Origin: Candidatus Electrothrix scaldis | Lineage (GTDB): Bacteria > Desulfobacterota > Desulfobulbia > Desulfobulbales > Desulfobulbaceae | Assembly: GCA_033584155.1 (NCBI GenBank) | Contig: CP138355.1 | Location: 496,001 to 560,000, forward strand | DNA: 64,000 bases | Direction: 5' to 3' | Shown here: in pieces, positions 6,640-30,147 of the stretch | Numbering within the stretch: position 1 is the stretch's first letter | Layout: each line of letters opens with the position of its first letter | Notes under the pieces: model-generated | Told to the model about the DNA's origin: nothing | The model's database searches: none | What the model saw: the letters and a program-made list of their open reading frames with translations, nothing else | Translations under genes and position numbers: made by a program

Positions 6640-8565
6640 TTAACCATGTAACTTTTCAGCCAGGCCGGAAAAGCGTTGCGTCTTTCTCTTGACCGTTATT
6701 GCGAGCCTTTCTGAGGATGCACAAAGGATAAGTTTGCTGCGAGCCCGGGTAATACCGGTGTAGAGAAGTTCCTGACTGAGCACCCGGCTCTCCTCTTCCG
6801 GCAAAAGCAGCAGGACCTGATCAAACTCCGACCCCTGGGCCTTATGCACCGTAATGGCATAGGCCGTCTCATGCTCCGGTAAGCGCGCAGGACTGATCGA
6901 GATCAGGCTGTTATCTGCCCGGCGAAACCAGGCTCGTAATTTTCCCTGCCCGTCCCGCCAAAGTATACCGGTATCGCCATTAAAAAGCTGCATCTCATAC
7001 TGATTACGGAGGATCATAATCGGGCGTCCTTGGTACCAGTCTGTCTTTTGCGCAGGAATCAGGCCTGCCCGCCGCAGGACCTGAGTCACCAGGGCATTGA
7101 TGCCCTCAACCCCATCCTGTCCCTTGCGCAGGGCGCAGAGAAAGCGAAACTCCTCCATTGCCGTAAATGCCTGTTCCGGCGAAGAGGCTTGCAACATAGG
7201 CAGAAATCCCTTTCGTATCTGCTCCTCCAGCCATTGCGCCCTCTGCCTTCCTGTGTGTTGCACCACCTCCACATCTGGACGTTCATCCGGGTCACCAGCC
7301 AGAATCTGGTGCATCTGCTCCACGGAGCCGCTCTTCACTGCCGCAGCAAGGGCACCGATCCCGCTCTCATCCTGAAAACGATAACTGGTGCGCAGTAGCA
7401 CCAGTGAATCGGCCAGAGGATGACCTGCTGTGGTATCAGTTACATCAGCTTCCTCCTCTGTTTCCTGCATAGAGCGAGACCCCGACATAGAACTCCCGGT
7501 CAACTGCTCCAATTTAGTACAGAGCTGAGGGGACCATCGAGGCTCGCCCTCGCCGCAAAGATCCGCAAAAAGGCTGCCCGCTTCCACCGAGGCCAGCTGA
7601 TGACGGTCCCCAAGCAGGATAATGCGGGTCTTCTCCGGCAGGGCCTCCAGAATGGCGACCATCATCTCCACATCAATCATGGAGGCCTCGTCCAGGATCA
7701 GCAGGTCCAGGTACAGAAGATTCTCCCGGTTAAAACGAAAATCCGCAGCACCGGGCCGGGAACCAAGCAGACGATGCAGGGTCTGGGCCTGTTCCGGGAT
7801 ATCCTGCCGAAGATCCTCGGGCAAAGAGAGCTTAGCCTTGCGGATGGATTCCTCCAGGCGGGCTGCTGCCTTGCCTGTCGGAGCAGCCAGGGCAATCCTG
7901 AGGAGCTTTTTTCTCCGCCCCTTCTGCGCCTGCTCCTCTTTATCCTGCTGCTGAGCATGCTGGGCCTGAATCACAGCCAGGATGCGGGCCACTGTATGGG
8001 TCTTTCCGGTTCCAGGGCCACCGGAGATAATCACCAAGGGTTTCAGCAAGGCCAGAGCAGCAGCCATTTTCTGAAAATCTATGACGTCACCACCCTCTTC
8101 GCTCTGAGGAAAAAGTCGGCTCAGTACTTGAGAGGCAAGCTGCGAATCAAAATCAAGTTGGCTTGCAGCCCGACGTCGCAGGGTTGCGGCAATAAATGCC
8201 TCGTAGCAGGAGAAGCGGTAGAGGTAGAGCCGGTTCTTCTCGTCAAGAATCAGAGGAGATGTCTCACCGGGAAGGCCAACAACCGTGGTGGCCAGCAAGT
8301 CCTTGCGCCACTGTTCCAGATCTGGACAGCGTTCCTGCACAAGCTCTGCCAGGGTTGCCTGCTCAGGTGTTTCTTCCAGGGGATAGCAGACATGCCCGTT
8401 CCCCACTGCGGCACTGGCCAAGGTTGCAGCAAGGAGGAGGGAGGGATGGGTTGGATCTGCCGATCGGGCTGTGGCGAAAGCCTGCTTTTCCAGGAAAAGC
8501 CCGAGATGAAGGTCCAGGAGCCGTATTTCGCCTTGCACACAGGCCTGTTGCAGCTGTTTATGCAT
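6640..8565 (-). CDS. recD: exodeoxyribonuclease V alpha subunit (RecD helicase)
   Basis: 641 residues from the chosen ATG (8565); an in-frame ATG at 8604 lies inside the upstream gene. It is an SF1B 5'-3' helicase: Walker A GGPGTGKT near residue 190, DEAS Walker B (LLILDEASMID), GDRHQLASVEAGSLF (motif III), and C-terminal AITVHKAQGSEFD and YTGITRARSKL (motifs V and VI). Its length and N-terminal MHKQLQQACVQGEIRLLDLHLG segment fit RecD of RecBCD (about 600 residues) rather than the longer RecD2. recB and recC are not in the window. The start codon overlaps the stop of the upstream CrtI-like gene (8558-8560), so translation is probably coupled. Low-complexity insertions (a GRRKK stretch and an acidic segment with TEEEADVTD) are present. 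Confidence 0.9.
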   Translation of the reverse strand: MHKQLQQACVQGEIRLLDLHLGLFLEKQAFATARSADPTHPSLLLAATLASAAVGNGHVCYPLEETPEQATLAELVQERCPDLEQWRKDLLATTVVGLPGETSPLILDEKNRLYLYRFSCYEAFIAATLRRRAASQLDFDSQLASQVLSRLFPQSEEGGDVIDFQKMAAALALLKPLVIISGGPGTGKTHTVARILAVIQAQHAQQQDKEEQAQKGRRKKLLRIALAAPTGKAAARLEESIRKAKLSLPEDLRQDIPEQAQTLHRLLGSRPGAADFRFNRENLLYLDLLILDEASMIDVEMMVAILEALPEKTRIILLGDRHQLASVEAGSLFADLCGEGEPRWSPQLCTKLEQLTGSSMSGSRSMQETEEEADVTDTTAGHPLADSLVLLRTSYRFQDESGIGALAAAVKSGSVEQMHQILAGDPDERPDVEVVQHTGRQRAQWLEEQIRKGFLPMLQASSPEQAFTAMEEFRFLCALRKGQDGVEGINALVTQVLRRAGLIPAQKTDWYQGRPIMILRNQYEMQLFNGDTGILWRDGQGKLRAWFRRADNSLISISPARLPEHETAYAITVHKAQGSEFDQVLLLLPEEESRVLSQELLYTGITRARSKLILCASSERLAITVKRKTQRFSGLAEKLHG

Positions 8566-10048
8566 TAAGACAACACTCTTCTTTAAACGCTTCAGCCCCA
8601 ACAAGCAACTTCACCGTACTGAAGGACCCCATCAGCGTACCGATGACTCCGGGAGCCAGCACATTCTGCCCGGCCAGATACAGACCCTTGACCGCAGTGC
8701 GATTCAGCAAGGCAGCAGCCAGCATCTGGCTGGAAGAGCGCCGCACCCCGTAAGCGCTTCCACCCGGACTGTTCATCCAATCCCGCATGGTCAGAGGCGT
8801 GTAGGCATCAAGAATCTTGGCACCTTTGAAGGTACCAAACAATCTCTCGGCCTCTTTCAGTAATTCCTCAGCATGTTGCATCTTCAGCGTACCATAGTCA
8901 TTCCCGCGCCGCCCGGTACGGGTATCCTGCCAGGGTGCCCATAACTCATCCTTGCCCGATGTGAGGATGGAAAGGAGGTTGGCATCCTTCCTGCCTGTTG
9001 TGCGGATCTGATAATACTTCATATCCGGGACATTCCCCTCTTCATCCGTATCTATCTTGAAAATATTATAGGGAATCTCAGGATGGCTCTCCGCATCAAC
9101 CCGGACATGTACAGAAAAAATCCCGTGGGTATCCAGGAGCCTGCTGATCCGTTGCCGATAGGATGGCTTCACCGCTCCTTCGGGCAACATCCCCAAAACC
9201 ACCTTGGGATGCACGGCCCCGATCACTGTTTCAGCTTCCAGATATTCCCCGGATTGCAAGCGTACCCCCTTAACGACGCGGTCAGCAATATCCAGCCCGC
9301 TAACCTCGGCTCGGGTGATGATCTTCCCACCTAATTCCAGCAGACGCCGAGCAAAGGCATCTGCCATCTCCGACCCACTGCAATCCAGGCGCCAGGAGGA
9401 GGAGAGGTAAGAGGCCAGGGCCATATTATGGTAAAAGGCAGGACAGTCCTGCAAGGGAACGCCGATCCAGCAGGAGGGCACAGCCAGGATACTCCGCAGC
9501 CCTGGAGAACAGCGCAGTTCATTCAGGATTTCACCAAAGGAGTCCGCCTGATCCAGGAGAGTGAAATTGCTTTCCATCCCGTAGAGGAAATCAAGGCCGT
9601 GCAATTGCTCACTGGCCTTGCGCAGGCGGGCAAGAATCTCGACGATGGCCCTCCGCTCCTCAGGAAAGGCCTGCCTGAGATTCTCGGCAAAGGCATCCAG
9701 ACCCTCGGGCACATCAAAGGTTGCGGATCCTTCAGGTTGCTTGTCCGAAGCAGCAAAGAGGTAGCGATCAATAACCCCGCTCTGCCCCATCCTGGTGACC
9801 GGGATACTTTCGGTGACACCGAGATAGTCAAAAAATGTACGCAGGATCTGTCCCTTATCCAGAGAGCCCAGATAATGTATCCCGACCTCACACTCAATGC
9901 CCTCGCGAGGGTAGCTGCGCATCAGCCCCCCTGCCTGGGAATTCTTTTCCAGGACCGTGACCTCGAAGCCCAGCTTTGCCAGAATAATTGCCGTGCTCAG
10001 GCCGCCGATACCAGAGCCGATGATCAGGACCTTCTTCTTTGAGAGCAT
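8558..10048 (-). CDS. CrtI/phytoene-desaturase-family FAD oxidoreductase (copy 1)
   Basis: About 496 residues from the ATG at 10048 (MLSKKKVLIIGSGIGGLS); the longer start at 10075 would overlap the preceding gene. The dinucleotide-binding GSGIGGLSTAIILAKLG motif and following acidic residue (VLEKN) are at the N-terminus, and the family C-terminal FAD motif is GLYLAGQNVLAPGVIGTLMGS. CrtI-like enzymes desaturate, isomerise or saturate polyene and isoprenoid or acyl substrates with FAD. It is one of three paralogous families in this window that travel with ketosynthases, ACPs and a radical SAM enzyme, so an acyl-chain substrate is likely but not proven. It overlaps recD by 8 bases. Confidence 0.8.
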   Translation of the reverse strand: MLSKKKVLIIGSGIGGLSTAIILAKLGFEVTVLEKNSQAGGLMRSYPREGIECEVGIHYLGSLDKGQILRTFFDYLGVTESIPVTRMGQSGVIDRYLFAASDKQPEGSATFDVPEGLDAFAENLRQAFPEERRAIVEILARLRKASEQLHGLDFLYGMESNFTLLDQADSFGEILNELRCSPGLRSILAVPSCWIGVPLQDCPAFYHNMALASYLSSSWRLDCSGSEMADAFARRLLELGGKIITRAEVSGLDIADRVVKGVRLQSGEYLEAETVIGAVHPKVVLGMLPEGAVKPSYRQRISRLLDTHGIFSVHVRVDAESHPEIPYNIFKIDTDEEGNVPDMKYYQIRTTGRKDANLLSILTSGKDELWAPWQDTRTGRRGNDYGTLKMQHAEELLKEAERLFGTFKGAKILDAYTPLTMRDWMNSPGGSAYGVRRSSSQMLAAALLNRTAVKGLYLAGQNVLAPGVIGTLMGSFSTVKLLVGAEAFKEECCLNA

Positions 10049-10056
10049 AGCGTCGC

Positions 10057-11853
10057 CTATAATTCCTCTGTACATTCCTCGGAAAACACCAGTCGTTCAA
10101 ACCCCACCGACACCACACTAAAGCTACGTAGCCTGAGCTGTCCAGCAAACTTGCGCCTCAATTTCTCCTGATAACGGGCCAGCCCCTGCCGAGCTTCCTC
10201 CTGCTTTTTCTGCACAGCAGGCAGCTGCCTGAGTTCTTCTTGAGAGAGTTGCTCAAGCTGCTCACCGCTCAGGCCCGCCTCTTTCAACGAGACATACTTG
10301 AATTCCAACAAAATATCCAGCAGGTCGTACTGGCGCATATCCGGGCGCACGATCATGGTCAGGTCGGCATACGAGCGCTCCAGCGCGGTCTCCGACTCCA
10401 TGATGTAAAAGGTATCGTTAAAGAGCAGGGTCAGGAAGGCGGTCTTAACAGTCAATTCGTTACTCCAGGCATAATCGCGATTATGGAAGACCTTGAAGTA
10501 TTTTTGCTCAACGAAATCGCAGAGAAGTCGAATATCCCCCTGCTGACACAACGCTTCCGCAGCCTCTCGGGCGGTTTCAATACTGCGATTATCCGGCAAG
10601 AATGCGTCCCGGATTCTCTCTGCATAGAGTTTACGGATCACCAGGTTAGGGATCGTCAAAATGATCTTACCGAACTCGTCTTCTCCGCCTATGGTCAGCA
10701 CCCCGAAGTAATAAAGCAGCGAAGCCATGAAAACATCGTCTTTCTTGGCTACAAGCATATCCTGCACGCCGAAGCGATCAGCCAGTTCCACAACACCAAC
10801 AGATGACTGTTCAGCCAAAGCTCCCATGACCAGTTCATGGCCTCCGGGCATTCCGGCAATGCTGCGAATTTTTCCCCGGTCCATTGCCATATTGCTGTCA
10901 AGTGGCTTACGTGGATATTCACAGCTCCTTTGCAAGGACTTGAGGAAATAGAGAGCCAAGGTAGGATTATAGATGCGTTTCTCGGCGCGCGGACTGAAGC
11001 AATAGCCGTTATAAAAGGTACGCATCAGTTCCAGGGCCTCCGTCGTCTTCGCTTCCGGCAGATCACAGTGGGTTGCGACCTGCTCCAGCATTTCCGCGAT
11101 TTCCTCCTGATGAAAGCCGCAGAGATGGTTGAATTCCGGCAGTAGGTAGATATTTTCCGCAACATTATAGCCGCTGGTGATATCGCTCAGCACCACAGGC
11201 GACACCCCGGTGATAAATACCCGGTCCAAGCCCTGCCCGGCAGCAGCGGACTTGATAACCTTGAACAGGACTTTCAACACGCCTTCCCCGGAAAGCAGTG
11301 TCTTATACTGTTCTCTGTCACCATTCTCCGCGCCCATCATAACTTCATTGGCGAAGTTATCGTACTCATCAATAAGTAAATAGAGCTGAGAGGACGTCTG
11401 TCGTACTGCTGCCAGCAACGATTTGAAGGCACTGAACCCATTGCTGGACTCTCGAATGATGCCGGGGGGCAGGACATCCCGGTAGGTCAGCGCAAAATCT
11501 CTGATAGAGTCGTTTAAATAGAGATGCAGATTTTTCTGGATGTCCTCGCTGCTTCCCTGGGGATTTATCTCGGAGAAATCCCATTTCAGAATGAAATAGC
11601 TGTTATGTCGCGGGGTGGGATTTTTTCCGATCTTCAGATGGCCGAAGAGTTGGGCAAAGCTATCTGCCTTAGCCAGATCATAATAGTTCTCCAGCATAGA
11701 CAGGAGCAGGCTCTTGCCGAAACGGCGGGGACGGAGAAACAGGAGTTGATCGCCAGTTTCCTCCAGCAGGAGGATCAGATCGGTCCGGTCGGCGTAGAAA
11801 TAGTCTTGGCTGATAATCTTGTGAAAATCGCAGATGCCGTAGGGAAATTTCAT
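10057..11853 (-). CDS. AAA-ATPase-like / PD-(D/E)XK nuclease protein (tandem copy A)
   Basis: 598 residues from the MKFPYG start at 11853; a longer in-frame start at 11943 reaches into the neighbouring copy and is unlikely. The N-terminal AAA-ATPase-like domain has Walker A RPRRFGKSLL (about 40-50) and Walker B LYLLIDEYDNFANEV. The C-terminal domain has the PD-(D/E)XK signature YDLLDILLEFKY (Asp and Glu-x-Lys). The function of this amplified family is not established; roles in defence or DNA processing have been suggested from domain content. It is a near-identical tandem duplicate of 11864-13648, differing mainly at scattered sites and in the last residues (FSEECTEEL here). Confidence 0.85.
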   Translation of the reverse strand: MKFPYGICDFHKIISQDYFYADRTDLILLLEETGDQLLFLRPRRFGKSLLLSMLENYYDLAKADSFAQLFGHLKIGKNPTPRHNSYFILKWDFSEINPQGSSEDIQKNLHLYLNDSIRDFALTYRDVLPPGIIRESSNGFSAFKSLLAAVRQTSSQLYLLIDEYDNFANEVMMGAENGDREQYKTLLSGEGVLKVLFKVIKSAAAGQGLDRVFITGVSPVVLSDITSGYNVAENIYLLPEFNHLCGFHQEEIAEMLEQVATHCDLPEAKTTEALELMRTFYNGYCFSPRAEKRIYNPTLALYFLKSLQRSCEYPRKPLDSNMAMDRGKIRSIAGMPGGHELVMGALAEQSSVGVVELADRFGVQDMLVAKKDDVFMASLLYYFGVLTIGGEDEFGKIILTIPNLVIRKLYAERIRDAFLPDNRSIETAREAAEALCQQGDIRLLCDFVEQKYFKVFHNRDYAWSNELTVKTAFLTLLFNDTFYIMESETALERSYADLTMIVRPDMRQYDLLDILLEFKYVSLKEAGLSGEQLEQLSQEELRQLPAVQKKQEEARQGLARYQEKLRRKFAGQLRLRSFSVVSVGFERLVFSEECTEEL

Positions 11854-13648
11854 AATGAGTACACTATGCCTCTTCAGCCCAAACCAGTCGCTCAAATCCC
11901 ACCGACACCACACTGAAACTGCGTAGCCTGAGCTGCGCAGCAAACTTGCGCCTCAATTTCTCCTGATAACGGGCCAGCCCCTGCCGAGCTTCCTCCTGCT
12001 TTTTCTGTACAGCAGGCAGTAGCCGGAGTTCTTCTTGAGAGAGTTGCTCAAGCTGCTCACCGCTCAGGCCCGCCTCTTTCAGTGAGACATACTTGAATTC
12101 CAACAGAATATCCAGCAGGTCGTACTGGCGCATATCCGGGCGCACGATCATGGTCAGGTCGGCATACGAGCGCTCCAGCGCGGTCTCCGACTCCATGATG
12201 TAAAAGGTATCGTTAAAGAGCAGGGTCAGGAAGGCGGTCTTAACAGTCAGTTCGTTACTCCAGGCATAATCGCGATTATGGAAGATCTTGAAGTATTTTT
12301 GCTCAACGAAATCGCAGAGAAGTCGAATATCCCCCTGCTGACACAACGCTTCCGCAGCCTCTCGGGCGGTTTCAATACTGCGATTATCCGGCAAGAATGC
12401 GTCCCGGATTCTCTCTGCATAGAGTTTACGGATCACCAGGTTAGGGATCGTCAAAATGATCTTACCGAACTCATCTTCTCCGCCTATGGTCAGCACCCCG
12501 AAGTAATAAAGCAGCGAAGCCATGAAAATATCGTCTTTCTTGGCTACAAGCATATCCTGCACGCCGAAGCGATCAGCCAGTTCCACAACACCAACAGATG
12601 ACTGTTCAGCCAAAGCTCCCATGACCAGTTCATGGCCTCCGGGCATTCCGGCAATGCTGCGAATTTTTCCCCGGTCCATTGCCATATTGCTGTCAAGTGG
12701 CTTACGTGGATATTCACAGCTCCTTTGCAAGGACTTGAGGAAATAGAGAGCCAAGGTGGGATTATAGATGCGCTTCTCAGTGCGTGGACTGAAGCAGTAG
12801 CCATTATAAAAGGTACGCATCAATTCCAGGGCTTCCGCAGACTTCTCTTCCGGCAGATCACAGTGGGTTGCGACCTGCTCCAGCATTTCCGCGATTTCCT
12901 CCTGATGAAAGCCGCAGAGATGGTTGAATTCCGGCAGTAGGTAGATATTTTCCGCAACATTATAGCCGCTGGTGATATCGCTCAGCACCGCAGGCGACAC
13001 CCCGGTGATGAATACCCGGTCCAAGCCCTGCCCGGCAGCAGCGGATTTGATAACCTTGAACAGGGCTTTCAACGCGCCTTCCCCGGAAAGCAAGGTCTTA
13101 TACTGTTCTCTATCACCATTTTCCGCGCCCATCATAACTTCATTGGCGAAGTTATCGTACTCATCGATAAGTAAATAGAGCTGAGAAGGAGTCTGTCGTA
13201 CTGCTGCCAGCAACGATTTGAAGGCACTGAACCCATTGCTGGACTCTCGAATGATGCCGGGCGGCAGGACATCGCGGTAGGTCAGGGCAAAATCTCTGAT
13301 AGAGTCGTTTAAATAGAGATGCAGATTTTTCTGGATGTCCTCCCTGCTTCCCTGGGGATTTATCTCGGAGAAATCCCATTTCAGCATGAAATAGTTACTA
13401 TGGCGTGGGGTGGGATTTTTTCCGATCTTCAGATGGCCGAAAAGTTGGGCAAAGCTATCTGCCTTAGCCAGATCATAATAGTTCTCCAGCATAGACAGGA
13501 GCAGGCTCTTGCCAAAACGGCGGGGACGGAGAAACAGGAGTTGGTCGCCGGTCTCCTCCAGCAGGGGGATCAGATCGGTCCGGTCGGCGTAGAAATAGTC
13601 TTGGCTGATAATCTTGTGAAAATCGCAGATGCCGTAGGGAAACTTCAT
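10078..13648 (-). repeat. direct tandem duplication of about 1.8 kb
   Basis: Segments about 10078-11853 and 11873-13648 align at a constant offset of 1795 bases, with only scattered substitutions over nearly the whole coding sequence. This is a recent head-to-tail gene duplication and a likely substrate for homologous recombination. Confidence 0.9.
11864..13648 (-). CDS. AAA-ATPase-like / PD-(D/E)XK nuclease protein (tandem copy B)
   Basis: 594 residues, start at MKFPYGICDF (13648); an ATG 11 codons upstream (13681) is possible but lacks family support. Domains and motifs equal those of copy A: RPRRFGKSLL, LIDEYDNFANEV and LLDILLEFKY. The C-terminus is WAEEA rather than FSEECTEEL. Copy B ends 10 bases before copy A begins, so they are likely co-transcribed. 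A more distant relative lies at 45169-46863 (Walker A RPRRFGKTLF). Confidence 0.85.
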   Translation of the reverse strand: MKFPYGICDFHKIISQDYFYADRTDLIPLLEETGDQLLFLRPRRFGKSLLLSMLENYYDLAKADSFAQLFGHLKIGKNPTPRHSNYFMLKWDFSEINPQGSREDIQKNLHLYLNDSIRDFALTYRDVLPPGIIRESSNGFSAFKSLLAAVRQTPSQLYLLIDEYDNFANEVMMGAENGDREQYKTLLSGEGALKALFKVIKSAAAGQGLDRVFITGVSPAVLSDITSGYNVAENIYLLPEFNHLCGFHQEEIAEMLEQVATHCDLPEEKSAEALELMRTFYNGYCFSPRTEKRIYNPTLALYFLKSLQRSCEYPRKPLDSNMAMDRGKIRSIAGMPGGHELVMGALAEQSSVGVVELADRFGVQDMLVAKKDDIFMASLLYYFGVLTIGGEDEFGKIILTIPNLVIRKLYAERIRDAFLPDNRSIETAREAAEALCQQGDIRLLCDFVEQKYFKIFHNRDYAWSNELTVKTAFLTLLFNDTFYIMESETALERSYADLTMIVRPDMRQYDLLDILLEFKYVSLKEAGLSGEQLEQLSQEELRLLPAVQKKQEEARQGLARYQEKLRRKFAAQLRLRSFSVVSVGFERLVWAEEA

Positions 13649-13786
13649 GAAGCAATGCTCAATAGTGGTGGAAGAGTTCAACTGGATGGCGCTGCTCTTG
13701 AAATATTCTCAATCAGGTATGGTAGAAAGAGGTGGGGGCTTTGTCAATGGGAAATGCGGAATCCACCAATAAATGGAAGTTGACCC

Positions 13787-14246: not shown

Positions 14247-15608
14247 CTAACGAATAAGATACTCCCAGAGAGGCCCGACATACCCCCTTGTATGCATCTT
14301 ACTGACGATCTCGGCAGCCCGAGCCCCTCCTGACCCAACGATCCAGTTGATCCGCTTCCCGGCCCGTTCCGTGACCATCGTATCAATCTGCTCCCGACTG
14401 ATTACATCAGGTTCATAGAAAACAGGCTGGAGGAAATCCGTTGCCGCATTGATCTTCTCCTCTTTCAGGGCGATATCGTACAGCCCTGTACCGGGATAGA
14501 TCCTGATCCCGACAAAGTAAAAGGTCACGGTCTTCTTGAGCTGCTCCCGATGCTCCAGGCTCTCGTTGATCGTGCCCTCAGATTCCCCCGGCCCACCGAG
14601 GAGGAAATAATGGGCCGTATGCAGGCCCGCATCAAGGGCCTGCTGATGCGCCGTAAAGACATCCTGCACCCGGAAGGGTTTCCTATAATTCTTCAGCATG
14701 GTATCGGAGAGGGCCTCGGTGCCGAATTCCACATGGGCAAGCCCGGCATCGGCCATGACCGTGAAATAGTCCGCAGGCAGTCTGACCGGGGCAAAGAAGC
14801 CCCCCCAGGGGATGGACAACCCGGCCTGTTGAAAGGCCTTGGCCACCGCCAGGCTATGCTCGACATCCGAGTTAAAGGCCGAGTCGGTGAGAAAGAGGTA
14901 TTTCGCCCCGGCTGCCTCCAGCTCCAAGGCGGTCTTTGCCACCTCTTGCGGATCAATCAGGCGATGTTTCCTGCCCTCAATATGCGGATAGGGGCAGTAG
15001 ACACAACGGAAGGCGCAGCCCCGTTTGCTCTGGAGATTGAGCATACCGCCATGCTCAAGATAAAAACGATAATGCCCGGCCTCCTGCGGGAAGGTACGAT
15101 TGCGTTGCCCCTCCCAGGGTGGGGCCTTCTCGATAGGGATGTCAGGTGAACAGGAGGTGGCCGCCAGCACGCCGGGGATCTCGCTCGGATCCTGCTGCTT
15201 TTCCAGGGCCTCCACCAGCAGGCCGAAACGCTCGCCCTCGCCCACCAGGCCGTAATCCACATCAAAAGAGGGCAGGATCCTTTCCGGCATGATGTTAAAG
15301 CCGCTACCGCCGCAAACCAGGACAGCCTGGCTCCGCGTGCGTAGCCAGGAGACCAGCTCCTTATAGACATTGATAAAACAGAGCGGATCTCCGGCCTCGG
15401 TATTATCAATATTCCGGCAGGAAATACCGATCACTTCCGGCTGATATTCAACAAGGAGCGCCTCCAGCTCCGCACGGGAAAGGACATTGCAATCCGCAAT
15501 ACGGACCTCATGCCGCGCTGCAATCGAACCTGCCACATAATCAAGGCCGATGGGGTACACCGGGTACGGGACAGTCAGGGTATTCGGGGAGATCAGCAGG
15601 ACTCTCAT
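14247..15608 (-). CDS. B12-binding radical SAM enzyme, lipid-biosynthesis type
   Basis: 453 residues. Residues 1-135 have a cobalamin-binding fold pattern (VLLISPNTL, EVIGISCRNID, VCGGSGFNIMPERIL). The radical SAM domain carries CxxxCxxC at Cys198, Cys202 and Cys205 (GCAFRCVYCPYP). The final 40 residues are family-specific. B12-dependent radical SAM enzymes methylate, cyclise or rearrange unactivated carbons. This subfamily is found with ketosynthases, ACPs and CrtI-like enzymes in the loci proposed for ladderane-type lipids in anammox bacteria and in related loci of some sulfate reducers. The ATG overlaps the stop of the KS fusion by 4 bases (ATGA), so the three genes 18162 to 14247 form a tightly coupled operon. 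Confidence 0.85.
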   Translation of the reverse strand: MRVLLISPNTLTVPYPVYPIGLDYVAGSIAARHEVRIADCNVLSRAELEALLVEYQPEVIGISCRNIDNTEAGDPLCFINVYKELVSWLRTRSQAVLVCGGSGFNIMPERILPSFDVDYGLVGEGERFGLLVEALEKQQDPSEIPGVLAATSCSPDIPIEKAPPWEGQRNRTFPQEAGHYRFYLEHGGMLNLQSKRGCAFRCVYCPYPHIEGRKHRLIDPQEVAKTALELEAAGAKYLFLTDSAFNSDVEHSLAVAKAFQQAGLSIPWGGFFAPVRLPADYFTVMADAGLAHVEFGTEALSDTMLKNYRKPFRVQDVFTAHQQALDAGLHTAHYFLLGGPGESEGTINESLEHREQLKKTVTFYFVGIRIYPGTGLYDIALKEEKINAATDFLQPVFYEPDVISREQIDTMVTERAGKRINWIVGSGGARAAEIVSKMHTRGYVGPLWEYLIR

Positions 15609-17896
15609 GGCTGTCCCTGTCTCTTTGTTCCAGAGTGGAACTCCATCGCTGTGATGTATTCCCCTAAGCCCAGGACAAGGATAGCCTTCTTCTGCTCATT
15701 CAGCAGGATATCCTCTGCTCCTGCTCTTTCTCCTGCTAACGCACCGGGAACACGCCCTGCTGCCATAAAGGAAACGGCAAGGGCCGCTGCCGTTGCTGAA
15801 GCTGAGGCGAACTCACCGATTTGTTTGCGATAGCGCAGGACCGGCACCGTGAGAGCGGCCTGCTCCATGAAGCGGGCAAGCTGTTCTTCCCCCTCTTTTT
15901 CCTGAGCAATCGGGATGCCGACGAGGATCAGGGCGTAGCGACTGAGCTCTTTATCATCTCCAGCTTGTCGCTGGAGTGCCTTGATGAGGGAGCCAACTGC
16001 ATCCTCACGCTTACTGCTCTGATAGAAGGGAAGAGAAATCTGGCAAATCGCCCCTTCCATCTTGCGGCTCACCAGGAGGGCACCGCCGCCATCAGATAAA
16101 TCGGCCAAAGATGTACCCAAGGGGATTGAGGGATCAAAGAGCGGCGAAAACTCCCCGTGCCCCTCATCAGCACCAAGGACCAGGGCCGGGCTGCCCCCAT
16201 CCAGCTCAAGCTGGGCTGCCAACAGGGCCTGCTCAAAGGAGTAATCGCCCCCGCTGGTGGTGATATTGGGGCCAGTGGAACCAAAGAGAATCGCAGCCTG
16301 GCTGGCCGGGCTATTATGCACAGAGCCGACAAAATCCGTAGGGCTAGGAAACTGCTCTTGAGATTCTTGCAGGCGAGCCAGAAAATCATAGGTGTCGGAA
16401 AGTGCTCCCCAGCCAGTACCCATGAACACCGCAGCCGGTTTTTCCGCCTCTTCCCCATTTTCGTTCTGCGCAGAAAGCAGCGCCTCTTGAGACAGGGAGA
16501 GAGTCATTCTCGGCAGCCGCTTCAAACGACGGATCAGGCGAGGGGGGAGATTCCTGGAAATAATATCCTCAGCTACGCAACCAGTAGCGGATTCACCCTT
16601 TTGCAGGCACGCCAGAGTAGCTGCCAGATCACCGGCCCCGGTCAGGCAGGAGTAGCCATGAACAGCCAGCCCTCCCACCGCTTGTTCCTGTTTGTCACCT
16701 TCTTGTTCTGGTTCTTTTCCCGCAAGATCTGGTGTACTGATAACCAGAGAGGCATTATTGCCGCCGAATCCGAAGGAATTGGAGAGCACCGCCTTGGTCG
16801 GTTCCACAAGAGGCTCCGTTAACGGGGAAAGTTCCAGGGCAGGATCCACCTGCTGCAAACCGGTATTGGCAGGACGTAGTCCCTGGGAAATACTCAGGGT
16901 CGAAACCACGGCCTCGATTGCCCCGGCAGCAGCCAAGGAATGACCTGATGCGCCCTTAATAGAGGAAAGCGGAGGAACACTGCTGAACAACCTTCGTACC
17001 GCCTTGGACTCCGCCAAATCGTTATCCGGGGTGCCGGTGCCGTGCAAGTTAATGTAATCGATATCCTCGGGCCTCAAGCCAGCATCAGCCAAGGCTGCCT
17101 CCATCGCTGCAAAAGCGCCCTTCCCTTCAGGATGCGGAGCCGCAGGATGATAGGCATCGCAGGAAAGACCGGCGCCAAGCAAGCGTGCCCGGCAATGCTG
17201 AGGCTTGCGGGTGGAGAGCAGAAGCATGCCAGCTCCTTCGGCCACGGCCATCCCCTGCCTGTCTTGGTCCAAGGGCTTGCAACCCTTCCGATCAACCAAT
17301 TGCAGAGAATGAAACCCGAAATAGGTAAGGCGACAGAGCGAATCCACCCCGCCTGCCAGGACGGTCTCGGCCTGACCGCTGCGGAGCATACGCAGGGCCA
17401 GAGCCAGAGCAACCGCCCCGGAGGCACAGGCTGTGGAGACGGTGAGAACGGGGCCGGTGCATTGGTATGCCTCAGCAAGGCAGGTTGCTATACTGTGCAG
17501 ACCGTGATGCTGAAAACGTGCTTTTTCCCGCACCTGCTCCTGGAGGAGTTCTTCAGTGGTCAGGATACCACCGGTGGTGGTGCCAAGGATAATGGCATCT
17601 GGTCGTATATCAGACCTTATCTCACCAGCCAACTCTGATGGAGCGTCCCGCAGGGCTTGCTCTGCGGCGGCAAGGGCCAGCCGATGGCTACGCGGTAGGG
17701 AATCTGCACTCCCTTCTCCATTTTCCTCCGTCAGAGGAGCCTGCCCTACAGGCAGGGGATTCCCCTGCATCAGAGGAAAAAGCTCCAGCGGTCGGATCGC
17801 AGAATCGCCTTTGCGCAACCGTGTTTCCGTAGCTGCACAATCAGCACCAAGGGCGCTGATGATTCCGGTACCGCAGATATATACGGGCACAGACAT
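15605..17896 (-). CDS. fused ketosynthase / chain-length-factor-like protein
   Basis: 763 residues with two thiolase-fold halves. The first (1-395) is an active-looking KAS II type condensing enzyme: Cys157 (STACASGA), His285 (NLHGTGTPD) and His319 (KGASGHSLAAAG), with SNSFGFGGNNASL near its end. The second half (about 410-763) resembles the 'ketoacyl-synt_2'/chain-length-factor group. It keeps a VHNSPASQAAILFGSTGPN element but has SGGDYSF near residue 550 where the catalytic Cys would be, so it cannot condense. KS and CLF are normally separate subunits of a heterodimer in type II polyketide systems; here they are one chain. It overlaps the ACP stop (TGATG) and the radical SAM start. It likely sets the length of a polyketide or acyl chain built on the neighbouring ACP. 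Confidence 0.8.
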   Translation of the reverse strand: MSVPVYICGTGIISALGADCAATETRLRKGDSAIRPLELFPLMQGNPLPVGQAPLTEENGEGSADSLPRSHRLALAAAEQALRDAPSELAGEIRSDIRPDAIILGTTTGGILTTEELLQEQVREKARFQHHGLHSIATCLAEAYQCTGPVLTVSTACASGAVALALALRMLRSGQAETVLAGGVDSLCRLTYFGFHSLQLVDRKGCKPLDQDRQGMAVAEGAGMLLLSTRKPQHCRARLLGAGLSCDAYHPAAPHPEGKGAFAAMEAALADAGLRPEDIDYINLHGTGTPDNDLAESKAVRRLFSSVPPLSSIKGASGHSLAAAGAIEAVVSTLSISQGLRPANTGLQQVDPALELSPLTEPLVEPTKAVLSNSFGFGGNNASLVISTPDLAGKEPEQEGDKQEQAVGGLAVHGYSCLTGAGDLAATLACLQKGESATGCVAEDIISRNLPPRLIRRLKRLPRMTLSLSQEALLSAQNENGEEAEKPAAVFMGTGWGALSDTYDFLARLQESQEQFPSPTDFVGSVHNSPASQAAILFGSTGPNITTSGGDYSFEQALLAAQLELDGGSPALVLGADEGHGEFSPLFDPSIPLGTSLADLSDGGGALLVSRKMEGAICQISLPFYQSSKREDAVGSLIKALQRQAGDDKELSRYALILVGIPIAQEKEGEEQLARFMEQAALTVPVLRYRKQIGEFASASATAAALAVSFMAAGRVPGALAGERAGAEDILLNEQKKAILVLGLGEYITAMEFHSGTKRQGQP

Positions 17897-18162
17897 CAGG
17901 AGGGTTTATCCGAAGAGTGTTCCTGGATATACTCGGCCAGAGAGACCAAGGAGGAAAAAACCTTCTGTCCCACCTCCTGGTTATTGATGACGATCCCGTA
18001 ATCCTTCTCCACCATAACCACCATTTCCAACACGTCTATGGAGTCTATGCCCAGTTCTCCACCGACCAGTTGGGCATGTTCATCAAAAGTTTCCGGCTGG
18101 ACGTCGCTGAGATTCAGAATATCAATAAGTTTTCGCTTCAGTTCTTCTATCAGTTCCTGCAT
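17896..18162 (-). CDS. acyl carrier protein (copy 1)
   Basis: 88 residues with a four-helix ACP pattern. Ser41 in GIDSIDVLEM is the expected 4'-phosphopantetheine site. The surrounding helices are acidic, as is usual for recognition by ketosynthases. It is the first gene of the ACP / KS-CLF / radical SAM unit, and its stop overlaps the next start by one base. The divergent gene at 18299 lies upstream, so the promoter should be in 18163-18298; no clear -35/-10 pair was identified. Confidence 0.9.
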   Translation of the reverse strand: MQELIEELKRKLIDILNLSDVQPETFDEHAQLVGGELGIDSIDVLEMVVMVEKDYGIVINNQEVGQKVFSSLVSLAEYIQEHSSDKPS

Positions 18163-24855: not shown

Positions 24856-26262
24856 TCAGGATCGCACATAGGCATCCACATCATTAGCCACAATCACACC
24901 ATAATTAATTGCCCCGAGCCATCCGCTCATGATGATCCCCACAGAACCTACATGAAACAGGCCACCTACCTCTTTAAAAATGGTACGGGAAATATCCAGC
25001 CCCTCGAACTTGGTGCCGAAGGAGGTGCCTCTGGTGTGAAGGGTATAGCGATTAAAGGTCTTAGGTGTCGCGGAAGAGATTGTATCCACCTTATCTTGAA
25101 TGCCAGGAATATAGCGTTCCAGATCAACAAAGCAACGCTTTACCATTGCCTCTTTTGCCTCTTTATAGGCTGCTTCATCCAACCCTGCCCAGTCGTCGTA
25201 GTTGGCATTCATAGAGGCCACCACGGTATAGTCAGGCTTCTCAGGACGAGTCTTGGGATAGTAGACTGAGAAGGTACGACTCTTCGTCTCCATGCGCCGC
25301 ATTTCTTCAGAAGAGAACTCTTCTGAGGTTGAAGTAAAGAGCAAGTCACCCACGTCCGGGAAAGCTTCTCCCCTGCGAATACCGAAGTACACCTGGCATG
25401 AGGAGTTATTCACCACCACCTTATCGAAGCGAGAGAGAAAATCATCACGAAAGGCATCTCGACCAGCGAGATTGTCAATGGTGTTGGTGATGCCGGAATT
25501 GGAGACCACAGCCTTGGCCATAATTTCCCGGCCCCCAACAAGGACACCCCTGGTTTTGCCCTTATCGACCAAAATTCTATCCACCTTGGCCCCGGTGCAA
25601 AGGGTTACCCCGTTCTTTTGCAGGTCATCAGCCATCATGCCTATGAGTTTATCCGTACCGCCCTCAAAGGTGAACACACCCTTGCTCATGAAATTAGAAA
25701 AAACAATGCCGTAGGTGATAGCAGGCTCATCCAGGGTTGAGCCGTTTGCATAGGTAATGGGCTCCATAAGCAGGCGATGCACATCAGTCCGACCAGGAAA
25801 GAACTTTTCAAAGAGCTCCCGAGTAGTCATCCCCTGGTCATCGTAAAAATTCATCGCCCTGACGGTGTTGAAAAAATCATCCACTGTCGCGCGATCGATC
25901 TTAAAATCCTCATGCAGGATGCGGGTGAAGTCATCCTTGGAAAAGGTCGTGGTTAGGGAAAACTGAGGATTATCAAAGGCAATATCCTTCAGCTGGACAA
26001 TAGAGTCTCTGATTTCTTTGGACCAGTATTTCTTGCAGGTCTTGATCATACCATGCGGAAAGCCATGCAAGGAAACGTCAAAGATATGCCCTCCCCGCTT
26101 AAACCAGGTCGCTAAACCACCCAACTGGATATGATGCTCCAAGAGAAGGACGCTATGGCCGGACGTGGCAAGACGGTTGGCACAGGTCAGGCCACCAAGA
26201 CCGGAGCCGATAACAATAACATCGTAGCTGTTTTGAACCTTGTCAAGAGGTGTAAAAGGCAT
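24856..26262 (-). CDS. CrtI-family FAD oxidoreductase (copy 2)
   Basis: 468 residues. The N-terminal Rossmann motif is VIVIGSGLGGLTCANRLATSG, followed by LLLEHHIQLGG. The central body contains FEGGTDKLIGMMADDL, and the C-terminal FAD motif is GLFHVGSVGIIMSGWLGAINYG. The family includes phytoene desaturases, carotene isomerases and retinol saturases. This copy differs clearly from copies 1 and 3, so the three are unlikely to be redundant. It is the last gene of the KS/ACP/CrtI operon, 62 bases after the PAS/zinc gene and ahead of a terminator. A substrate held on the adjacent ACP or a released polyene lipid is the most likely target. Confidence 0.8.
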   Translation of the reverse strand: MPFTPLDKVQNSYDVIVIGSGLGGLTCANRLATSGHSVLLLEHHIQLGGLATWFKRGGHIFDVSLHGFPHGMIKTCKKYWSKEIRDSIVQLKDIAFDNPQFSLTTTFSKDDFTRILHEDFKIDRATVDDFFNTVRAMNFYDDQGMTTRELFEKFFPGRTDVHRLLMEPITYANGSTLDEPAITYGIVFSNFMSKGVFTFEGGTDKLIGMMADDLQKNGVTLCTGAKVDRILVDKGKTRGVLVGGREIMAKAVVSNSGITNTIDNLAGRDAFRDDFLSRFDKVVVNNSSCQVYFGIRRGEAFPDVGDLLFTSTSEEFSSEEMRRMETKSRTFSVYYPKTRPEKPDYTVVASMNANYDDWAGLDEAAYKEAKEAMVKRCFVDLERYIPGIQDKVDTISSATPKTFNRYTLHTRGTSFGTKFEGLDISRTIFKEVGGLFHVGSVGIIMSGWLGAINYGVIVANDVDAYVRS

Positions 26263-26324
26263 ATCAATACATTCTTTCTATGTTAACACGTTACCCGGAG
26301 CGCTTCGCCCAAGGCTGTTACATA

Positions 26325-26969
26325 CTACTCTTTCCTGTGCTGAGCCCCGCTTGAATCAGAGAGCGTCAAATTTTTCCCGTTCTTTGAGGATGACTTTATC
26401 TTTTCCATCTCTTTCTCAAAACAATCTGGACAATACCCGTGTGAGCATTCGACATTCCAATTATTTTTGAAATAGGCTTCAACCCGCATCCAGGTTTTCT
26501 CGTCATTCTGCACCTTTCCGCAGACCGGGCAGATAAAAATCATCTGATACAGCTCTGCTATATCACTTATATTTTCTATAACCAGTAGGGCATGAGGAGC
26601 ACCGCCAAAGGAAAACGGTGAGACCGTTACAAGGGCATATATTTCGACCTTCTGATCATCCTGGATCACCTCCATGCGGGTCCGCCGCCGAACAACACGT
26701 TTCCCCCGTAAGGCCTGAATAACAGAGTTTCTGATTATGCATTCCGAGCATTTTACAGATTTTCCACACTCTTTTTTATTTTCTTCCGAATGGATACAGT
26801 GGAGTATTTCCCCGGCGCGATGTTGCAAAATGGTGTCTCTGCCGGAGCGCATGAGCTCCTCTGCGGCTGCATTATACTCCTGAATCCGCACCTCCTGATC
26901 AACCACAAAAATCATGGACGGCAAGGCGTCAAAGATCTCTCTGAGCATTTCACCTTCGTTCATCGTCAT
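26325..26969 (-). CDS. PAS-domain protein with Cys clusters
   Basis: 214 residues from ATG 26969, which follows GGAG at proper spacing; ATG 26981 is an alternative. The N-terminal PAS domain (MLREIFDALPSMIFVVDQEVRIQEYNAAAEEL) contains an inserted Cys set (CIHSEENKKECGKSVKCSEC) of the kind that can hold an FeS or zinc centre. The C-terminal region has CPVCGK and CSHGYCPDCFEKE, a likely zinc ribbon. There is no kinase or DNA-binding output domain. It sits between two CrtI-like genes in the lipid operon. It may sense redox state or a ligand and regulate by protein contact. Confidence 0.7.
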   Translation of the reverse strand: MTMNEGEMLREIFDALPSMIFVVDQEVRIQEYNAAAEELMRSGRDTILQHRAGEILHCIHSEENKKECGKSVKCSECIIRNSVIQALRGKRVVRRRTRMEVIQDDQKVEIYALVTVSPFSFGGAPHALLVIENISDIAELYQMIFICPVCGKVQNDEKTWMRVEAYFKNNWNVECSHGYCPDCFEKEMEKIKSSSKNGKNLTLSDSSGAQHRKE

Positions 26970-27040
26970 TGTGATCTCCAATCCCTACCTATATGGATGT
27001 TTTCTTCTCAGTCGAATAAACGTATTGATCACCCCAATAT

Positions 27041-28429
27041 TCAGGTCAAAAGATGCTGATTCACTATAGTCACACCACTCAGCATGGACCCAACAATCCC
27101 AAGGTATCCCTGATCCGTGCCTGCAATAAAGAGATTCTCAAACGGCGTCTTGCCGCTCTTGATCTTTATTGGGCTGCCGTACACCGCTCCACCACGTTTT
27201 TCTGTAAAACGCTCAATGGTCATGGGCGTAAAGCTGTCCTGAAACACTGCACCCTGATTGTACGTACCGAGAATCTGGCTCACTGCTGCAGTGGAGAGCT
27301 GACCACATTTTTCTTTAAGCTGCCGATACTGTTCTTTATCAGCAGCTGCCTGTTGCCAAAGATCGTAATTAGCGGCATTGGTGACCCGAACCTGGACCGG
27401 CCCATCACTTTTTGGCTCCAGCCCCTGGAAATTATCTGGGAAACAAATCACACCCCAGGAAGGATCAATGGTATCATCAGGCTGATGATAGCGAAGCTTC
27501 TCGTTGAGACTGTAAAACAGGATGGTACGCCCTGCCTTCTCCTGCGGCAGATCCAGTTCCGGGATCATGGAAATGGTTTCCATAAAGGTCATTCTACCAA
27601 CATACCGGTCAATGTCCAAGGGCCAGCCGCTTAATTTTGCCGTTCCCGGAATGCCAACGGTGGACAGGACCGCATCGGCAGTAATTTCTTCACCACTTTC
27701 CAGGCGGATGCCCTGTACTTTCTCATCCCTTGTGAGAATGGCATCAACTGGAGCACGGAAACGGATCTCCCCGCCAAATTGGGCATACTGCGCCATCAGC
27801 ATATCGATGAGATCCTTAATCGTCCCTTCAGGTCGAAAAAAGCCCTCCAAAAAGACCGCACGAAACATGATCGCAAACTGCCCCAGATCCATATCATGCT
27901 CTTCTGCATTGCCGTAGACCATGAGCGGCAGCAGCAGCATATCCTCCAATAGAGGCTCAGCAAGGCGGTCATGGAGAAATGCACGGGCAGACTGCCAAGG
28001 CACTTCGGCAAAAGGATCATAGGCATCAACTTCCTTGGACATTGCCCGAAACCGATCAACGCTTGCAGGAAAAGCGCGAGTTATTTCCTCGCAGAGGAGT
28101 TCAAATTCATTAGAAAAATTGAGTGAAGCCTGGGGAAAGATCACCGCTGAGCCAAGCTGCTCATGGGTAATGAACTTTTTACGCGAAAGTTTGAGTTGGC
28201 GGAAAAGCCTGTTGAGGGGGGCATGCTTTGTCTCTGGACCAGCATAGTTGGTCATGGCATGCAGGCCGGTTTCCAGCAGATAGCCCTGACGGTAGTAATA
28301 AGAATTCAAACCACCGGGTAAGGCATGCTGCTCAACAATCAAAGTTTTTTGCCCGAAACGGGCTGAACGGATACCGGCGGCCAAGCCAGAAAGGCCGCCG
28401 CCGATAATAATGAGCTGGTAATCAGCCAT
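27041..28429 (-). CDS. CrtI-family FAD oxidoreductase (copy 3)
   Basis: 462 residues. The Rossmann motif is LIIIGGGLSGLAAGIRSARFG with LIVEQHALPGGLNSYYYRQG. The C-terminal FAD motif is NLFIAGTDQGYLGIVGSMLSG. It is related to phytoene desaturase/isomerase enzymes and is most similar in layout to polyene oxidoreductases. It lies 89 bases after the ACP gene and 71 bases before the PAS gene on the same strand. Its start has no strong Shine-Dalgarno. The reaction is likely desaturation, isomerisation or saturation of a polyunsaturated chain. Confidence 0.8.
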   Translation of the reverse strand: MADYQLIIIGGGLSGLAAGIRSARFGQKTLIVEQHALPGGLNSYYYRQGYLLETGLHAMTNYAGPETKHAPLNRLFRQLKLSRKKFITHEQLGSAVIFPQASLNFSNEFELLCEEITRAFPASVDRFRAMSKEVDAYDPFAEVPWQSARAFLHDRLAEPLLEDMLLLPLMVYGNAEEHDMDLGQFAIMFRAVFLEGFFRPEGTIKDLIDMLMAQYAQFGGEIRFRAPVDAILTRDEKVQGIRLESGEEITADAVLSTVGIPGTAKLSGWPLDIDRYVGRMTFMETISMIPELDLPQEKAGRTILFYSLNEKLRYHQPDDTIDPSWGVICFPDNFQGLEPKSDGPVQVRVTNAANYDLWQQAAADKEQYRQLKEKCGQLSTAAVSQILGTYNQGAVFQDSFTPMTIERFTEKRGGAVYGSPIKIKSGKTPFENLFIAGTDQGYLGIVGSMLSGVTIVNQHLLT

Positions 28430-28518
28430 AGCAGAAATGCGGGAAGTGTGAGATGTGTTTGCTGTTATTGAAAATTCGCCCTCCCCGCTGCATAATTCAA
28501 CGGAAATATTCTGGTTGA

Positions 28519-28770
28519 TCAGGCGTCTTGCAATTTCGGTTCAAGATAATTGACACAGCTGGTCAGGGTGGCGAGTTCAGGATAATCCTCCTCCGGGATC
28601 TGCAGCTTGTAGCGTTTCCGCAGCTCCATCACGATATCAAGAAAATCCATTGAATCAAGGTCTAACTGATCTCGGAGAGGCTGATCCGCATCCAAACTGT
28701 CAAAATCCGCATCCTCATCTATGTCTTCAATAATTTCAAGGATTATATCCTTGATTTCATCACGGGTCAT
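28519..28770 (-). CDS. acyl carrier protein (copy 2)
   Basis: 83 residues and very acidic. Ser40 in LDLDSMDFLDIVMEL is the phosphopantetheine site. GAGGAA precedes the ATG. It is located between the ketosynthase (117 bases upstream) and CrtI-like copy 3. It differs from ACP copy 1 (GIDSIDVLEM), so each ACP probably serves a dedicated partner. Confidence 0.9.
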   Translation of the reverse strand: MTRDEIKDIILEIIEDIDEDADFDSLDADQPLRDQLDLDSMDFLDIVMELRKRYKLQIPEEDYPELATLTSCVNYLEPKLQDA

Positions 28771-28887
28771 GCCGGTTCCTCAATATAAATACTCTTTAAT
28801 ATTCGTTCGCTATTCTTTCAACCCTTTCTCCTGGCAGCCTCTGCCAGTCGTATTTTTTGGAAAGGGGATAACGTACCATAAAATCGT

Positions 28888-30147
28888 TTAGCTCGCCATA
28901 AATCTCTTAATAATGACGACTGAATTAATCCCTACCATGCCGAATGAATTATTAAGAATTGTCTCGACCTGATCAACTTTTTCTGCGGTTCCGGCAACCA
29001 AACCGGGAAGCACACAGTCGGGATCAAGGCTGTCGATATTAATCGTCGGATGGACAAAATTATCTTCAAAGGCAGAGAGATTAGCAGCCAATTCCAGCAC
29101 TCCGGCAGCGCCCATAGCGTGCCCAATGATGGACTTGGTGTTATTGCTTCTCACATTGGAACAGCCAGAAAAGACCTCAGCAATGGCCTTACACTCCTCT
29201 ACATCACCCTGTTTAGTGCCGGTAGCATGGGTGTTGATGATACTGATATCTTCCGGGGTCAAACCTGCGCGTTCAAGGGCCAGACGTATGCATTCTGCCT
29301 GACGAGGACCGTAGGGCAGGACAAAATCACGGGCATCAGAGTTCATGGCATACCCAGCAACTTCACCGTAGATCTTTGCCCCACGGGCAAGGGCCTTGTC
29401 CAGCCGTTCTAAAGCAAAAACACAACCGCCCTCAGAGATAACAATCCCGTTCCGGTTCTGGTCCAAGGGACGACTGGCCTTAGTCGGGTCATCATGCTCA
29501 GCCAAAGCGCCCTGCGCTCGAAAGCTGGCAAATATCCCAAAAGAACCAACACACTCAGAGAGCCCACCGCAGAGAGCGAAATCAATCTCTCCAAGCCGCA
29601 ACATCTGAGAGCCCTGGATCAAAGCGGCATTACCGGCTGCACAGGCTGCGCCAACCGAGTAATGCGGCCCGGTGATCCCGAACTTCATGGTGATTTCACC
29701 AGCCGGGTTATTGAGTACGGTACGAGGATTATGATGGTGGGTCCAGTAATCGACATTATAGTCAAACTTACTGATATTATAGACCTCATTTTCTGTTTCC
29801 ACGGTCCCGTGTTCAGTCAGGCCCATGTAGACTCCGGTACGACTGCGATCATATTCGGAAAAATCTATGCCCGCATCAGCCAAGGCCTCGCCTGCACAGT
29901 AGACTCCGATGCACCCAGCCCGGGTTCCCCGCTTATTTTCCTTTTTTTTGCGATATTTTGTTTCTGGAAAATCACAGATCCCAGCTGGATATGTATCCAT
30001 ATAGCGCAGATCAATGGTGGAAATTCCGCTCCGGCCCGCAAGAACCTGCTCACGAAAATCCGCTAAGGTATTAGCGCCTCCGGGTGCGGTCAGGCCCACT
30101 CCGGTTATGACTATGCGCTGCGCATCTGACAAAGAGACCTCACTCAT
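28888..30147 (-). CDS. beta-ketoacyl-ACP synthase, FabF-like
   Basis: 419 residues, KAS II type. The catalytic Cys169 is in VGAACAAGN, the histidines are in NTHATGTKQGD and KSIIGHAMGAAG, and the C-terminal segment is NNSFGMVGINSVV. An unusual Lys-rich loop (KYRKKKENKRGTRAG) follows the N-terminal strand. It condenses malonyl-ACP with an acyl-ACP. It starts 4 bases after the alaS stop, with its GGGGAG ribosome-binding site inside the alaS end, so it is transcribed and probably translated together with alaS. It heads the KS-ACP-CrtI-PAS-CrtI block and is probably a pathway-specific rather than housekeeping fabF. Confidence 0.85.
   Translation of the reverse strand: MSEVSLSDAQRIVITGVGLTAPGGANTLADFREQVLAGRSGISTIDLRYMDTYPAGICDFPETKYRKKKENKRGTRAGCIGVYCAGEALADAGIDFSEYDRSRTGVYMGLTEHGTVETENEVYNISKFDYNVDYWTHHHNPRTVLNNPAGEITMKFGITGPHYSVGAACAAGNAALIQGSQMLRLGEIDFALCGGLSECVGSFGIFASFRAQGALAEHDDPTKASRPLDQNRNGIVISEGGCVFALERLDKALARGAKIYGEVAGYAMNSDARDFVLPYGPRQAECIRLALERAGLTPEDISIINTHATGTKQGDVEECKAIAEVFSGCSNVRSNNTKSIIGHAMGAAGVLELAANLSAFEDNFVHPTINIDSLDPDCVLPGLVAGTAEKVDQVETILNNSFGMVGINSVVIIKRFMAS

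Follow-up and report, generated by a model that had tools for sequence, protein, structure and literature searches.

What does it mean for a ketosynthase (KS) to share one polypeptide with what looks like its own chain-length factor (CLF), and what product might such an enzyme serve in an anaerobic bacterium? The question is raised by a gene of Candidatus Electrothrix scaldis (Desulfobulbaceae) within a 64,000-nucleotide stretch of contig CP138355.1 (assembly GCA_033584155.1, positions 496,001 to 560,000), which we call the window and whose own numbering is used below. The open reading frame (ORF) at 15605..17896 on the minus strand, with an ATG start and no internal stop, codes for a protein of 763 amino acids (aa) that is a ketosynthase joined to a CLF-like half, as a sequence-only reading of the window had proposed. 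We consider it likely that this protein is the covalently linked KS-CLF of a type II (dissociated) system similar to those for aryl polyenes, with an unsaturated or polyene acyl chain as its product. Sequence, conservation, a predicted fold with approximate packing and the gene neighbourhood are the observations from which this reading is built, and from them we infer catalysis, docking of the acyl carrier protein (ACP), chain-length setting and the nature of the product.

Architecture and relatives of the fused protein

The KS half occupies residues 1-390 (16727..17896, minus strand), as assigned by Pfam, alignment and structural match, with PF00109 at residues 4-230 and PF02801 at 237-346. 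It is followed by a linker (residues 391-407; 16676..16726, minus strand) of low model confidence, whose length and letters vary in an alignment of 27 fused proteins, and then by the CLF-like half (residues 408-756; 15629..16675, minus strand), which was delimited by profile, alignment and fold. Within this second half PF13723 (Ketoacyl-synt_2), a family to which we take ApeC-type CLFs to belong, covers residues 448-596 with 37 bits against a cut-off of 25, and across all 763 aa the Pfam families are of the ketosynthase/thiolase type only. The catalytic residues Cys157, His285 and His319, which the sequence-only reading had placed in the first half, are found at those positions and are unchanged in all 27 aligned fused proteins. 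Its reading of SGGDYSF as the replacement for a catalytic Cys in the second half agrees equally well with an alignment that combines KS halves and CLF halves, where this motif overlies the KS Cys motif, the Cys column falls on Asp551, and the two His columns fall on Gly660 and Glu695. Among 23 CLF halves of the window's type (F1, defined below), the Cys column holds Asp in 20, Glu in two and Asn in one; the first His column holds Gly in 21, with one Asn and one Asp; and the second holds Glu in 17 and Gln in four, His being still present in two. The CLF half has thus lost the catalytic residues of a KS. Ratios of nonsynonymous to synonymous substitution (dN/dS) against three copies from the same genus are low throughout, the KS half having 0.07-0.12 and the CLF half 0.12-0.23.

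Structure prediction of the full chain, which had been suggested as a check, returned a confident AlphaFold2 model from the 27-row alignment, with a mean predicted local distance difference test (pLDDT) of 90 and a predicted template modelling score (pTM) of 0.94; pLDDT falls below 50 in the linker (397-405), in two short loops and at the C-terminus. Foldseek placed at the head of the 50 chains listed a whole-length match to 6riw, the KS-CLF of PfaC from a polyunsaturated fatty acid (PUFA) synthase, over 907 alignment columns and with a TM score by query length of 0.78, against 0.44-0.48 for the other 49. By this match, the two halves of the model appear to be placed roughly as in a KS-CLF pair. 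The KS half taken separately is best matched by VIA-align to 6kxd_A, the ishigamide KS (Z 57.4, rmsd 1.8, 376 residues aligned). The CLF half folded alone (pLDDT 92) is a complete thiolase-type fold, so it is not the unrelated domain that had been raised as a possible refutation; VIA-align matches it best to chains of FabF (Z 33.8-33.9, 331-339 residues aligned).

Against NF006618 (PRK09185), a model that we take to be linked to aryl polyenes, the KS scores 365 bits and stays under the cut-off of 407. The nearest solved chains to the KS half by sequence are 7f28_B and 6qsp_A (ApeO); 6qsp is by its entry title the ApeO-ApeC complex, and 7f28 is named in a paper on the aryl polyene of A. baumannii (PMC8358021). 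Only three solved chains match the CLF half at E<=1, namely 9s5h_C, 6kxd_B (the ishigamide CLF) and 6qsp_B (ApeC, at E 0.0013), and another chain of the first of these entries, 9s5h_B, matches the KS half. An Arg456-Arg457 pair in the CLF half, unchanged in 27 of 27 fused proteins, resembles Arg30-Arg31 of AbApeC, which is reported to be conserved and has been proposed to contact the ACP (PMC8358021). The pocket residues AbApeO His138 and AbApeC Glu142 could not be placed with confidence on the fused protein and were not used.

A different role for the second half has to be weighed here. It might be an inactive ketosynthase kept for structure or recruitment rather than for chain length, stabilising the KS or bringing in the radical S-adenosylmethionine (SAM) enzyme or an odd acyl unit. 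The replaced Cys and His residues suit this explanation, as does the overlap of a radical SAM gene with the KS-CLF stop (see below), and the comparable non-canonical FabF paralogues of Kuenenia may recruit products from outside type II fatty acid synthesis (FASII) (PMC2649909). We regard it as unlikely in view of the sequence matches to CLF chains and the whole-chain match to a KS-CLF pair, with the caveat that most of this evidence fits equally a CLF that also recruits.

Set against characterized systems, the window protein resembles several and coincides with none. PfaC likewise carries KS and CLF on one chain; the window protein differs in standing alone, with a free ACP gene and no further domains. 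PfaC is part of a multidomain megasynthase that includes dehydratases on the same chain. The ishigamide pair Iga11-Iga12 (6kxd) supplies the top VIA-align match for the KS half and one of the three sequence matches for the CLF half, yet consists of two proteins where the window has one chain, and we know of no radical SAM neighbour of that pair. ApeO-ApeC (6qsp; 7f28) shares with the window protein the closest KS sequences, the CLF match, the Arg-Arg pair and, in relatives of the window locus, some accessory genes; it too is a two-protein system, and ApeC has lost most of its second thiolase domain (PMC8358021), whereas the CLF half of the fused protein is full length. The fused protein is consequently not a strict member of the ApeO/ApeC group, being fused, full length in its CLF half and under the NF006618 cut-off, nor a strict member of the PfaC group, having no further domains. 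The earlier statement that KS/CLF pairs are normally two proteins needs qualification, given the one-chain precedent of PfaC and further fused forms in Verrucomicrobiota and Bacteroidales. No fused KS-CLF outside PUFA synthases was found in the portions consulted of three open-licence full texts (PMC12664062, PMC9582728, PMC10132072), which does not prove its absence from print.

Fused and split forms across genomes

A survey of fused versus split versions, also suggested at the outset, found both, with the fusion recurring in several bacterial phyla. Within the window's order the fused protein is present in 18 of 57 genomes, its own included and one copy (G035) cut by a contig end; a further genome (G040) carries it as two contig-edge pieces, and in the window's genus it occurs in four of eight. 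In a phylum sample of 345 genomes, which shares some members with the order sample, 17 (again including its own) have the fused protein at E <1e-170, and a distant fused relative (L065) occurs in G181. None of the remaining phylum matches listed extends past query residue 420. Twelve of these shorter matches were inspected (L058-L064, L066-L070), and in all twelve the KS is a separate ORF; the adjoining ORF passes the CLF profile threshold in six and shows weaker similarity to the CLF half in four more.

A wider genome scan gave 80 named loci among the matches listed, and here three fused types could be told apart: F1, the type of the window; F2, mainly from Verrucomicrobiota; and F3, which is shorter and comes from Bacteroidales. 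The fusion lies in one frame in 41 loci of F1, seven of F2 and eight of F3 and is not in one frame in the other 24, shares that are biased because the scan patterns were drawn from F1. Two of the 24 belong to F1 as well, one split over two overlapping frames (L111) and one at a contig edge (L120), and a third (L121) is unplaced. Among the members of F1 are Desulfobacterota, four Spirochaetota, Thiorhodococcus and one Myxococcota. The F3 loci (L122, L123, L124, L126, L127, L130, L131, L135), mostly from the rumen by their titles, have open frames of 580-682 aa next to an ACP gene, and the genes around them include KS-like and acyltransferase-like ones. The G020 contig with the fused protein also bears a strongly diverged stand-alone KS, after which comes a CLF-like ORF (L033:15048-17110); this KS forms the longest branch of the KS tree.

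The suspicion that a sequencing or assembly error had joined two genes, voiced with the original claim, is excluded by these counts: the fusion recurs in many independent genomes of the order and phylum samples and in 41 of the 80 named loci, nothing was found in favour of an artefact, and its probability is in our estimate negligible. The fusion is genuine and widespread, and this protein is not the only one of its kind.

The history of the fusion is less simple than a single event. In the KS tree, which has 83 rows, F1 forms one clade (SH-aLRT 99), F3 sits among split Bacteroidota forms, and the fused/split character needs four changes; on a CLF tree of 59 rows F1 and F3 each have a support of 100 and the character needs five. 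F2 is a single clade on the KS tree and not on the CLF tree, where L119 groups with split forms. A single clade of F1, F2 and F3 was rejected by the approximately unbiased (AU) test (p 1.0e-6), and a clade of F1 and F2 was not (p 0.25). To judge from these trees, either KS and CLF were fused at least twice in the family or an older fusion was split again in several lines, and fused and split forms of this pair would in both cases have interchanged more than once in evolution.

A dispersed lipid gene set and a proposed mechanism

Both flanking genes overlap the fusion. Upstream, an ACP of 88 aa (17896..18162, minus strand; PF00550), whose nearest NCBIfam model is NF006617 at 68 bits, just under the cut-off of 70, shares one base with the KS-CLF start (TGATG). 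Downstream, a B12-binding radical SAM enzyme of 453 aa (14247..15608, minus strand) shares four bases with the stop (ATGA) and passes TIGR04072 (rSAM_ladder_B12, "lipid biosynthesis B12-binding/radical SAM protein") narrowly, with 371 bits against a cut-off of 360. The overlaps are as the sequence-only reading had described them, and they suggest coupled expression of ACP, KS-CLF and radical SAM enzyme, which is less than the strict co-expression claimed there. Farther along the same strand lies a phytoene-desaturase-like FAD oxidoreductase of 505 aa (8558..10075; PF01593), and in L036 and L037 a desaturase-like gene directly follows the radical SAM gene.

Of the 41 F1 loci, counting those with enough contig, 30 of 34 have an ACP upstream, 27 of 36 have a TIGR04072-like gene directly next to the KS-CLF on its downstream side, and 21 of 27 carry relatives of both further radical-SAM-like genes. 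The search for a TIGR04072-like relative found none in the seven F2 and eight F3 loci. TIGR04072 is above its cut-off in 23 of the 57 order genomes, in nine of them at 555-607 bits; three of the nine clusters were fetched (L039, L040, L042), and in each of them the KS and a short CLF have a gene of their own. In relatives such as L036, L077 (the cultured Thiorhodococcus mannitoliphagus DSM 18266) and L110 the gene set stands in one place as two divergent arms, the first with a weak ApeP-like gene, FabG, a LolA-like gene, a weak B12/radical-SAM-like gene, an acyl ligase and a FakA/DegV-like gene, and the second with ACP, KS-CLF, radical SAM enzyme, a second ACP, two radical-SAM-like genes, two FabF, a thioesterase and a dehydratase. 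Relatives of this set in the window's genome are scattered over four sites, at ~505-514 kb (the window), 686-697 kb (L028), 932-937 kb (L162) and 1003 kb. The last encodes a dehydratase-like protein and a FabG that are 60% and 79% identical to those of L036, and a relative of the L036 ligase lies at ~934 kb. ACP, TIGR04072 enzyme and desaturase-like oxidoreductase mark the KS-CLF locus as part of a more extensive lipid gene set of ladderane type, which the sequence-only reading did not see.

We propose that Cys157 of the KS half would receive the acyl chain under construction from the ACP encoded next door, and that His285 and His319 would decarboxylate malonyl-ACP as the KS half adds two carbons. 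The CLF half would complete the dimer, may help to dock the ACP via Arg456-Arg457, and may seal the acyl pocket at its distal end. Processing after each round would fall to a ketoreductase and a dehydratase whose genes lie at other sites of the genome, and modification of the chain to the B12-radical-SAM enzyme and the desaturase-like oxidoreductase. Fusion, in this scheme, would keep the halves at a 1:1 ratio and disfavour KS homodimers; the dedicated chain length at which the sequence-only reading hinted may or may not go with it.

The same accessory genes invite a more conventional explanation, in which the protein is an ordinary ApeO/ApeC-type condensing enzyme for an aryl-capped pigment that merely happens to be fused. 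Its ApeO-like KS and ApeC-like CLF half would fit, and so would the L036 cluster, with its weak ApeP-like match, a FabG closest to flexirubin FlxB, a LolA-like gene and an AMP-binding ligase. We think it quite improbable, since the KS misses the NF006618 cut-off (365 against 407 bits) and the set includes the B12-radical-SAM enzyme and further radical SAM genes.

Several points also weigh against the KS-CLF of a polyene-type lipid system that we favour. The fit to 6riw is loose (rmsd 7.9; identity 18%), so that the geometry between the KS and CLF halves is approximate. When the CLF half is compared by VIA-align and Foldseek, chains of FabF and KasA come first and CLF chains, for example 6kxd_B, further down; fold alone thus does not say CLF, and the order of these lists was not used. 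Pfam describes PF13723 as "beta-ketoacyl synthase, N-terminal domain" and says nothing of CLFs, and the Arg-Arg equivalence with ApeC comes from a rough position count rather than a residue alignment. Several accessory assignments are weak, since in L036 neither the ApeP-like dehydratase nor the small radical-SAM-like proteins reach the Pfam cut-offs, and with ketoreductase, dehydratase and ligase at other sites in the genome their joint action with the KS-CLF is an inferred one.

Other features of the window and its genome touch this gene set. Between the radical SAM and desaturase genes, inside the lipid operon, stand two very similar AAA-ATPase_like genes in tandem (10057-11943 and 11864-13681, minus strand; PF09820, with a weak PDDEXK_9 match); same-genus genomes have one copy at this place (L044, L045) or two (L046), and the pair looks like an insertion that was later duplicated. 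A second lipid gene group (24856-30147, minus strand) lies ~7 kb from the KS-CLF operon, next to alaS, and comprises phytoene-desaturase-like oxidoreductases at 24856-26262 and 27041-28429, an ACP at 28519-28770 and a FabF-like KS at 28888-30147, with a PAS-domain ORF between members of the group. Together with the gene at 8558-10075 this brings the desaturase-like genes of the window to three, the number reported for Desulfotalea (PMC2649909). Elsewhere in the genome a second TIGR04072 protein (G000:C1:2869094-2870449; L163) scores 386 bits, more than the neighbour of the KS-CLF, and none of the other cluster genes searched for was found in the 20 kb fetched around it.

Relation to the ladderane loci of anammox bacteria

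To our knowledge, ladderanes are known only from anammox bacteria. No anammox sequence was named among the 80 scan loci (matches listed, F1-biased patterns), and our comparison with Kuenenia therefore rests on published tables rather than on sequences. The candidate ladderane loci of that organism are named as kuste3603-3608 and kuste2802-2805; the first includes an ACP (kuste3603), a FabF (3605), a non-canonical FabF (3606), a phytoene desaturase (3607) and a radical SAM protein (3608), and the second a radical SAM protein (kuste2803), a FabF (2804) and a non-canonical FabB (2805) (PMC4790861). What these loci and the syntenic ones of Desulfotalea have in common with the window is a gene content of ACP, FabF, non-canonical FabF/FabB, phytoene desaturase-like protein and radical SAM protein (PMC4790861, PMC2649909). 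Kuste3606 and Kuste2805 have lost the Cys and both His, the last His being replaced by Glu (PMC2649909), which is also the state of the window's CLF half and, as to the Glu, of 17 of the 23 F1 CLF halves. The replacements differ in detail as far as the published tables give them, with Val or Phe in Kuenenia against Asp in the window at the Cys position, Asn against Gly at the first His, and a retained Lys against Arg, and the Kuenenia KS-like proteins are two separate genes where the window has a fusion. Since the gene content otherwise equals that of the window, but for a KS and CLF on two genes, the comparison suggests that the "non-canonical" FabF and FabB of Kuenenia are CLFs.

The product that these loci have in common may be an unsaturated chain, to go by Desulfotalea, which is syntenic with Kuenenia and is reported to contain polyunsaturated C31 hydrocarbons, with no ladderanes detected (PMC2649909). 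Tentatively, one might go a step further and suppose that Kuste3606 and Kuste2805 are the CLFs of Kuste3605 and Kuste2804, and that the fusion is the covalent form of the same pair, at work in a polyene-lipid pathway that is widespread among anaerobes and has ladderane synthesis as one of its branches; the KS-CLF would build a polyene of fixed length, which radical SAM enzymes would cyclise or decorate.

The biosynthesis of ladderane lipids in anaerobes is still an unsolved problem, and the "ladderane" clusters of bacteria other than anammox are described as having no known function (PMC9902471). The interest of the fusion, one-chain KS-CLF proteins being already known in themselves, lies in its link to these ladderane-type clusters. 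It also offers a single protein to express, where expression of the Kuenenia candidates in E. coli left most of those tested undetected among the soluble proteins (PMC4790861). Above all, a natural fusion tells which KS pairs with which inactive partner, and it thereby points to the condensing enzyme of these clusters.

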